Source of the DNA: Gammaproteobacteria bacterium
GTDB lineage: Bacteria > Pseudomonadota > Gammaproteobacteria > Tenderiales > Tenderiaceae
DNA length: 64,000 nucleotides
Assembly (NCBI GenBank): GCA_021731365.1
Contig: JAKFXL010000037.1
Span: 126,037 to 190,036 of the forward strand
Direction: 5' to 3'
Every line of letters begins with the position of its first letter. Positions within the stretch are counted from its first letter, which is position 1. The notes below the pieces were generated by a model that saw nothing but the letters and a program-made list of their open reading frames with translations, was not told the origin of the DNA and made no database searches. Below are positions 30,277 to 33,007 of the stretch, in pieces. The translations under genes were made by a program, and so were the position numbers.

Positions 30277-31104
30277 TTACCAACTGAGATGTGCTTGTAA
30301 ACCCACGAGTGTGGGCAGGGAGTGGTTATCGTCGTGGGTGCGACTCAAGAGTGGCACAATCTCTATACTGGCCTCTTTGTACCCAAACGCCTTGTCAACC
30401 CGCTTATTAATAACGCCGAGCGGGTCAGTGAAAAAGAGCTTAATGTTGTCGCCAGTGGTGGCATAACCACGCTGGTTGATGCCACGGAGGATGTTTTCAC
30501 GTGCAATCATAAAATATTCGCCAACAACAGCCCCCCCCACTGGGGTAAATATCAGATCCTGTATTGAGGCGGGTTCAAAAAGCGCTTCAATCCCGTATTC
30601 ATAAATGGTCGACATAACTGTGCCGTAGAGTAGGGCCCCCTGTCTGTCAAAGCCACGTTGACGTGCACGCACGTAATAAACAGAGCCAAAGTAGGGATGG
30701 CCTATATAGTTGACCTCCCAATTATCCTTATCTTTACGTAGGTTGTGAACGTTGTCATCCCATTTGCGAAAGATATTGCCCCGTTTCTGGTCGTCCCCCC
30801 ATTGCGATACACTTTGTGGCATTAGGTAAAGCACACCAACCACACCCACTTGATAGAGCATGAATAGTTTGCTGTCGTGCAGCAGGCCATCCCAGTCAGG
30901 TGTGGCTGGCAGGTTCAGATGAGGGAACTCCAGCTGATCTGGGGTGGTTTGGTTGGGGATAGAAGGTGATATTGCCAGATTGTTATTGTTACTTTCTGTT
31001 GGTGTGTCCAGATAGCGGATATCGCCATCGGGTGGCGGAGTGCCAAAACAGAACCCTGACAAGGTTAATAAACTGACAAACAGCACTATAGTTTTGAAAA
31101 TCAT
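30277..31104 (-). CDS. DUF3943 family protein
   Basis: 275 residues with a signal peptide ending near FCFGTPP. The conserved part contains NYIGHPYFGSVYYVRARQRGF, YEYGIEALFEPASIQDLIFTPVGGAVVGEY and NPL-like motifs that mark DUF3943, a family suggested to sit in the outer membrane or its periplasmic face. Function unknown. Paired with DUF3187, whose start lies 3 bases past this stop; together they suggest an envelope role. Confidence 0.75.
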   Translation of the reverse strand: MIFKTIVLFVSLLTLSGFCFGTPPPDGDIRYLDTPTESNNNNLAISPSIPNQTTPDQLEFPHLNLPATPDWDGLLHDSKLFMLYQVGVVGVLYLMPQSVSQWGDDQKRGNIFRKWDDNVHNLRKDKDNWEVNYIGHPYFGSVYYVRARQRGFDRQGALLYGTVMSTIYEYGIEALFEPASIQDLIFTPVGGAVVGEYFMIARENILRGINQRGYATTGDNIKLFFTDPLGVINKRVDKAFGYKEASIEIVPLLSRTHDDNHSLPTLVGLQAHLSW

Positions 31105-31795
31105 TAAAGTAAGTCGTTAAATCCGAAAAATATAATACCGCCCCGGCATTAAGGGGCAATTAGATAGAAAACAGGCTGCAGAGGATAGCGGGTTTTGGCG
31201 GCTATTACCATTTTACTAGTGTCTTTGGCTGTTTAATGGGGGGTGTGCTGTCCGGTGGCTGGGTTTTTGTTGTTCGATGAGGGGCGGTTGAGATAGCACG
31301 GTTATTGGAATAGTGTAAAAAGCAAAGTTAACTGATTGATTTCTGGTAAATGTGGCGCTTATCCACAATAGCTGTGGATAAGTATGTGGACAAACCTTGG
31401 AAATGGCCGTTTAGCCCCGGTGATATCAGGGGCTGTAATAAAATGGTCATTTTTTGACCGGATTGTAACTCATTGAAAAATAAGAGAGATGGCAAAGGTT
31501 TTTGTGGGTATTGAGAAAAGTAGCAGAGATTGACATGCTCGCATGTGCTGATATGAGAGACTGTTAGTAAGTGTTGACATTGGGGCGTGTTAGGGTTGCA
31601 AAAATAGTTGATATGTGAAGATTATGAAGCGGCTTGAGTCAAAGTGGTGGATGTGGGGGTTGGCCACTGGCACATATAGTTGCGTACAGAGTGGCTAGAT
31701 TTCTGTAGCATCAACTGCAGTTGTATTGGCTGGAGAGGTGTCCGCCGGTTGACCTGGATCGTGGTTTGGACAGATGAGAAAAAGGATCTAATACG
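31105..31795. other. Long intergenic region, no gene seen
   Basis: About 690 bases separate two divergent genes. Short frames here lack ribosome sites and do not look like proteins. The outstanding signal is the DnaA-box cluster at 31359-31393, listed separately. The promoters for DUF3943 (minus) and the ChaN-like gene (plus) must lie at the two ends. Confidence 0.5.
31359..31393. promoter_or_regulatory. Cluster of three DnaA boxes
   Basis: TTATCCACA (31359-31367) is a perfect DnaA box on the plus strand. TGTGGATAA (31373-31381) is a perfect box in the opposite orientation, and TGTGGACAA (31385-31393) is a third with one change from consensus. Three boxes within 35 bases are unlikely by chance. 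There is no dnaA, dnaN or mnmG near, so this is probably not oriC. Confidence 0.65.
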
Positions 31796-33007
31796 ATGAA
31801 TTTCGTTTTTAAGGTGATGATGTTTTTTGCAGCCATTCATCTGAGTTCATGGGTACAGGCCGAAGAGCAGTTGAACGAGCCTGATTGTGTACCAGAAGGC
31901 AAGGTGTTGTTGCCAGCATCGAATCTCTGGACATCAACCCTTGGACTGATTGAGCAGGTCAAAGATCAGGACATCGTGCTTCTTGGGGAGCATCACGATA
32001 ACGTTGAACATCATCGCTGGCAGTTGCAGATGATTACGGGATTGCATGTATTGAAACCAGATCTGGTGCTTGGTTTCGAGATGTTCCCTCGCCAAGTCCA
32101 ACCGGTACTGGACCGTTGGGTCGCGGGGGAGTTGACTGAGGAGGAGTTTTTAAAACAGGTGAAGTGGGCTGAGTATTGGAATTTTGATGCGGCTCTCTAC
32201 TTGCCACTATTTCATTATGCACGGATGAATAAAGTCCCCATGTATGCATTGAACGTCAACCGCACATTGATACATAAGGTTGGGGCTGGTGGATGGGATA
32301 GTGTGCCAGTCGCTGAACGAGAGGGGATTTCCAAACCGGCCCCTGTTGGCGAGGATTATAAAAAGATGCTGGCATCGGTTTTTATGAGCCACGGTACGGC
32401 ACATAATGCGGGTGCCGGTGTAGATGATCAGCTTGGATCCGTTTTGGGAAACCCGGCGTTTGGCCGTTTTGCTGAGAGCCAGTCTGTTTGGGATCGCGCC
32501 ATGGCTGAAGGGATTGTTACAGGGCGTCAACAGCATCATGGGGCAATGATGGTGGCAATTATGGGAAGTGGCCATATGATGTACCACTTTGGCGTCCCCG
32601 AGCAGCTGAAGGCGCTGGGTGAAGGGGAACCGGTTGCACTGATCCCATGGGATACAGAGTTTGACTGTAGTTATATAGATAAAAAATTTGCTGATGCCGT
32701 CATAGGTCTGCGTATTTCTCGGTCTTCACAAAAAAATGAGCAACAAGAGCGCCCGCGCCTAGGGGTCTATCTGGAAAAGGGAGAGACCGGGGTAGTGATT
32801 AAACGTGTTGTGCCAGGTAGTTTGGCAGAGCAAAACAGCTTAAAAGAGGCGGACGTTATTGTCGAAATGGCATCCCGGTCAGTGACTGAGGTGGAGCAGG
32901 TTGTTGACAGCGTGAAGTCTATGCAGCTAGGTACATGGTTACCTATGAAAATAAAACGCGGTAAAGATCAGGTACTCGATATTGTTGTGAAATTCCCCAA
33001 CAAGTAA
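31796..33007 (+). CDS. ChaN-like haem-binding/erythromycin-esterase-like protein with C-terminal PDZ domain
   Basis: 403 residues: a signal peptide (to about residue 22, WVQAEEQ), a ChaN domain (about 45-285) with VLLGEHHDNVEHHRWQ, FEMFPRQVQ and IMGSGHMMYHFGVP, and a C-terminal PDZ domain (about 315-400; LGVYLEKGETGVVIKRVVPGS.A). ChaN of Campylobacter is a haem-binding lipoprotein; here the lipobox is missing, so a soluble periplasmic form is likely. The PDZ suggests it binds C-termini of partner proteins or docks to a protease. Monocistronic; the next gene, a sensor kinase, starts 94 bases later. Confidence 0.82.
   Translation: MNFVFKVMMFFAAIHLSSWVQAEEQLNEPDCVPEGKVLLPASNLWTSTLGLIEQVKDQDIVLLGEHHDNVEHHRWQLQMITGLHVLKPDLVLGFEMFPRQVQPVLDRWVAGELTEEEFLKQVKWAEYWNFDAALYLPLFHYARMNKVPMYALNVNRTLIHKVGAGGWDSVPVAEREGISKPAPVGEDYKKMLASVFMSHGTAHNAGAGVDDQLGSVLGNPAFGRFAESQSVWDRAMAEGIVTGRQQHHGAMMVAIMGSGHMMYHFGVPEQLKALGEGEPVALIPWDTEFDCSYIDKKFADAVIGLRISRSSQKNEQQERPRLGVYLEKGETGVVIKRVVPGSLAEQNSLKEADVIVEMASRSVTEVEQVVDSVKSMQLGTWLPMKIKRGKDQVLDIVVKFPNK

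Follow-up and report, generated by a model that had tools for sequence, protein, structure and literature searches.

The cluster of three DnaA boxes in the window (the whole 64,000-nucleotide stretch of DNA analyzed here) is very probably the core of a DARS (DnaA-reactivating sequence), a site where ADP-DnaA would be recharged to ATP-DnaA (estimated probability of about 0.85, judged from sequence). We read the cluster in this way because the orientations and offsets of its boxes equal those of Escherichia coli DARS1. The best explanation of the comparisons as a whole is that the element represents one among several DARS-type loci per genome in the host lineage, and that it has a distinct architecture, in which a predicted IHF site is inverted. 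A preliminary description of this DNA had suspected a locus with control over DnaA. Its picture of a compact, non-coding DnaA-box locus that probably serves DnaA control stands, whereas its specific suggestions (titration of DnaA, regulation of the flanking genes, the relic of a mobile replicon's origin) fit less well than a DARS, which it did not name.

Box I (31359..31367, plus strand) and box II (31373..31381, minus strand) are exact copies of TTATCCACA in head-to-head orientation, and box III (31385..31393, minus strand; TTGTCCACA) has one mismatch and lies 3 bp from box II. Measured from the start of box I, the offsets are 0, +14, and +26. The compact cluster of two perfect opposite boxes and a near-perfect third is therefore present at the positions first reported. 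All three boxes fall within the 691-base gap between the flanking genes (31105-31795), and no open reading frame of at least 80 amino acids covers them, in agreement with the earlier account of a non-coding region of about 690 bases. The number of DnaA boxes in the window is unremarkable (4, compared to a shuffle mean of 2.02; 4 or more in 14 of 100 shuffles). It is the arrangement of the boxes, rather than their number, that stands out. The exact pair TTATCCACA-N5-TGTGGATAA, a palindromic pattern that is listed on both strands, occurs a single time in the 3.41 Mb assembly. The composition-based expectation for the pair is approximately 1e−6 per 64 kb, but this estimate is post hoc, and independent support for the arrangement therefore has to come from its recurrence in relatives.

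Such recurrence is observed throughout the host family, to which the genomes drawn for the order turned out to be confined. Ten of the 11 family genomes carry the core pattern, at 15 sites in total, and there is no match in the reversed-pattern controls. If up to three mismatches are allowed, the core is found in all 11 genomes, at 30 sites (a count that includes two near-copies on different contigs of genome G002), while the 22 reversed-pattern control cells contain 0 matches. The boxes are thus kept in close relatives, and their absence from relatives, which the preliminary description had named as a refutation, is not borne out. Given the single exact pair in the assembly, the recurrence of the core in the family, and the empty controls, we rejected the possibility that the boxes arose by chance.

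Across the class, 225 of 370 genomes carry the core with at most one mismatch. A scan of named genomes with the strict core returned at least 117 stretches, of which 80 were examined. Among these 80 matches, three (L051, L097, and L116) have titles that point outside the gamma- and betaproteobacteria, and several titles read merely "Proteobacteria." A plus-strand IHF consensus with at most one mismatch is located at +117 to +123 in 54 of the 76 listed sites with enough flanking sequence, compared to a background of 0.0008 per position. Smaller, unexplained IHF-like peaks on the minus strand were seen at +52 (9 of 79) and +170 (6 of 76) among the listed named sites. Two DARS-core sites with similar flanks (L068 and L114) lie on one Granulosicoccus contig (CANMQI010000023.1), perhaps as a result of local duplication. 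Since boxes I and II together form a 23-base inverted repeat, the cluster could also be viewed as the palindromic operator of an unrelated regulator, with only a chance likeness to DnaA boxes. The joint conservation of box III, the three-box spacing, and the IHF position across the class makes such an operator highly improbable, and we retain the assignment as a DARS core.

The boxes are embedded in a conserved element of about 180 bp (31319..31498, plus strand; about −40 to +139 from box I). In addition to the boxes, the element contains an IHF-like site at −30 (31329..31341, minus strand), which matches WATCARNNNNTTR perfectly; a Fis-like palindrome, GGTCATTTTTTGACC, at +86 (31445..31459), which matches the Fis consensus; and an IHF-like site with one mismatch at +107 (31466..31478, minus strand), which is inverted relative to that of E. 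coli DARS2. Seven of the 11 family genomes (G000, G003, G004, G005, G008, G009, and G010) have one site of this type (class B) each, and the type is conserved over three genera. A single match to the IHF or Fis consensus has little predictive value by itself; in all seven class-B sites, the −30 match has an identical position and 0 to 1 mismatch, the Fis-consensus match is present at +86, and the +107 match keeps its position and strand, again with 0 to 1 mismatch. When the seven sites were compared in one ungapped register and in 20-base bins, mean pairwise identity was 0.40 to 0.90 within −40 to +139 and 0.22 to 0.34 in the bins outside it (range, −200 to +339; shifted-register background, 0.27). 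Six of the sites can be aligned without gaps over 176 columns. This sharp conservation boundary at −40/+139 is the best evidence that the element represents a self-contained functional unit. Beyond the +107 IHF-like site, we identified no equivalent of the essential E. coli Fis sites; the weaker Fis-like matches at 31607 and 31620 have one mismatch each. A known RNA family was rejected as an identity for the region, as the window has no Rfam match.

The class-B pattern was detected in 15 of the 370 class genomes; the draw included four members of the host family, of which three matched, and the remaining 12 matches fall outside the family. In 8 of these 12, an inverted IHF consensus without mismatch lies at +106 to +109, while approximately 0.75 would be expected by chance (our own estimate, given the letters fixed by the pattern). 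As exceptions among the 12, L189, one of the eight, has no box I, and L200 has no inverted IHF match. Because of this excess over chance, the inverted form probably extends beyond the host family, yet it appears to be uncommon. As a sequence, the inverted-IHF form is well supported as a distinct class.

The sites of the family fall into types by their flanks. Type A sites have a plus-strand IHF consensus near +120, like E. coli DARS2 (+119), and were grouped by eye into A1 and A2 from their flanks and neighbors, with L039 and L043 left unclassed and L045, L030, L018, L034, L040, and L044 as uncertain members. In type A1, a PriA gene lies on one side in nine sites and HemJ-type genes on the opposite side in seven, with the gene names Pfam-checked for the copy in the window's own genome (L033) alone. 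The Pfam name of the HemJ-type gene is UPF0093, which we take to be HemJ. In six genomes, the type A2 site is flanked by a polA/LOG-type region on one side and by gspC-gspD on the other (Pfam-checked for L036 and L041). Both subtypes resemble the window element in the core and, in many cases, in an upstream IHF-like motif at −30, but they differ from it in their neighbors and in the downstream IHF-like site, which is located near +120 in the orientation of E. coli DARS2. The window's own genome has five candidates: the window element, one on C47 (priA-hemJ), one on C22 (M48 peptidase-SelO), one on C50 (squalene-synthase-type gene and a DnaJ/TerB protein gene), and a weak one on C14. In the last of these (L043), IHF and Fis matches are both absent, and we did not count it as a DARS.

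In the named genomes, the strict core adjoins the start of priA (within about 250 bases of the match start) in 18 of the 80 listed loci, e.g., L047, L058, L061, L088, and L100, a count that leaves out four PriA matches farther off (L055, L069, L075, and L090). The presence of the core beside priA from Cycloclasticus to Luteibacter suggests that this is an old and stable DARS position. The strict core was also found in 12 IMG/VR viral contigs, nine of which (L206, L207, L209, L210, and L212 to L216) resemble one phage family. In the phage-like contigs, the core has a constant place in or beside a small open reading frame, directly 5′ of two large ones, and the flank examined differs from that of the bacterial sites.

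The genes next to the window element lie outside it and provide its context: a DUF3943 protein gene upstream (30277..31104, minus strand) and a gene encoding a ChaN/Tiki-family protein with a PDZ domain downstream (31796..33007, plus strand). The chaN gene is 3′ of the core in five of the seven class-B sites (the window, L019, L020, L024, and L027), with the gene start 392 to 437 bases from the core start. In G008, the contig breaks off some 390 bases 3′ of the core start; the G010 site has an M1-peptidase-like gene on its 3′ side, a family that is found on the 5′ side in G003. The recurrence of chaN would fit a role of the boxes as a DnaA-bound operator of chaN or the DUF3943 gene, as would the preference of E. 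coli DnaA, described in the accessible part of PMC11317965, for a double box such as boxes II and III, which are 3 bp apart. We nevertheless regard an operator as very unlikely. The core and the chaN start are separated by some 400 bases, conservation ends at +139, well before the gene, and no strong promoter match is present in the region (4 weak matches versus 1.6 expected). Moreover, near-identical cores adjoin unrelated genes elsewhere (priA/hemJ, type II secretion genes, SelO, and a squalene-synthase-type gene), and for this reason the proposed regulation of the flanking genes is disfavored relative to a DARS.

Given the compactness of the DnaA-box cluster, we also considered whether it could be the remnant of a replication origin from a plasmid or prophage, or the chromosomal oriC itself. 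No match to dnaA or dnaN was found in the window's own 3.41 Mb assembly (G000, 98.8% complete), so the true oriC of this genome is unplaced. Because 8 of the 11 family genomes have a dnaA match, the missing genes are most simply, and probably, explained by an assembly gap at oriC. The GC skew, which had been proposed, for the whole chromosome, as a means to see whether the cluster lies at the origin, is positive in all 16 of the window's 4-kb bins, and a sign change at 31 kb is absent. With this skew and no replication genes among the neighbors tested, we rejected a local origin. In the two-contig genome G003, the dnaA match is located at 3.175 Mb and the DARS-type sites at 1.91 Mb (class B), 3.06 Mb (A1), and 3.26 Mb (A2), which places the equivalent of the window element about 1.26 Mb from dnaA. 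The relic of a mobile replicon is disfavored by the conservation of the type across three genera and by ordinary chromosomal neighbors (the phosphate regulon, ChaN, SpoVR, and PrkA). An origin, past or present, is thus scarcely probable as an explanation of the cluster, and a DARS remains our preferred reading.

The proteins with which a DARS would be expected to work can be partly traced in these genomes. All 11 family genomes encode a Fis homologue (51% identity for the copy in the window's own genome), and the window's own genome has four IHF/HU-family genes, a count in which IHF and HU are not told apart. A 251-amino-acid frame has a weak Bac_DnaA match, from which we infer an Hda-like protein. 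According to the available portions of PMC5742627 and PMC8682772, ADP is released from ADP-DnaA at E. coli DARS cores via head-to-head contacts at boxes I and II. By analogy with the E. coli work, ADP-DnaA protomers would bind head to head at boxes I and II of the predicted core, with box III assisting assembly. Bending by IHF, together with Fis, would shape the complex such that DnaA gives up its ADP; the apo-DnaA, once released, would then bind ATP. Nucleotide exchange, and hence recharging of DnaA, is what we infer for this site.

More tentatively, and at somewhat less than even odds, we propose that the element belongs to a third DARS class, marked by a double IHF arrangement with an inverted IHF site and conserved in the host family at a separate locus that usually adjoins chaN. 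This class would coexist with the DARS2-like priA-hemJ loci and, in most genera, with polA-gspC loci, such that the number of dispersed sites that recharge DnaA would be at least three instead of two, and its geometry would lead to different timing. In full-text searches of an open-licence library, neither a DARS class with an inverted IHF site nor a family characterized by at least three DARS loci was found described.

The window element can be compared with three E. coli loci, of which datA has the opposite effect on ATP-DnaA. The box layout of datA probably differs from that of DARS cores, and the layout of the window element equals the DARS1 core. The titration first suggested therefore fits less well than a DARS, and the three boxes would form only a small sink compared to the 102 matches to TTATNCACA in the assembly. 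The element does resemble datA as a non-coding DnaA-box locus, in its case probably away from oriC, and its boxes have IHF-like sites nearby, while datA likewise works with IHF (PMC10950094 and PMC13036160, as far as their accessible text goes). We consider it quite unlikely, however, that the element is a site of the datA kind, at which the boxes titrate DnaA or promote ATP hydrolysis with IHF. Loss of datA in E. coli raises ATP-DnaA, according to the part of PMC4245941 available to us.

In the literature consulted, DARS have been characterized in E. coli, where two sites are described and a third, "DARS3," was merely speculated upon (excerpts of PMC4585315). Conservation of the DARS2 core among E. 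coli relatives is already on record in the accessible parts of PMC4245941, PMC5742627, and PMC8682772 (seven species). In MG1655, we located DARS1 in the gap that separates bioD from uvrB, with boxes at 0, +14, and +26. It shares with the window element three boxes in identical orientations and offsets, an identical box II, and an intergenic position, but it has other neighbors and no IHF-consensus match with at most one mismatch from −80 to +205. DARS2 (rppH-mutH) resembles the window element in the layout of boxes I and II, in an IHF site 3′ of the core, and in the involvement of Fis and IHF (the latter from the consulted part of PMC4245941). Its box I is degenerate in our own reading of the motif matches, and the boxes of the window element are nearer to the consensus. 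The third box of DARS2 lies 2 bp, rather than 3, from box II (accessible portion of PMC11317965). On the plus strand of DARS2, the IHF consensus is matched perfectly at +119. The window element has no IHF site in this position and orientation; its own match, at +107 on the minus strand, is 12 bp nearer to the core. In E. coli, DARS2 activity requires the IHF sites, the Fis sites (FBS2-3), and their positions, and the essential Fis sites are beyond the IHF sites (PMC4245941, in the sections available), whereas the Fis-like site of the window element is between the core and the IHF site. DARS-type cores are apparently general in the class, often with several per genome, and repeatedly lie beside genes such as priA. 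Their comparison bears on whether the number and position of such loci set initiation timing, and the opposite IHF orientations of the DARS forms offer a natural test of how bending by IHF drives the release of nucleotide from DnaA.
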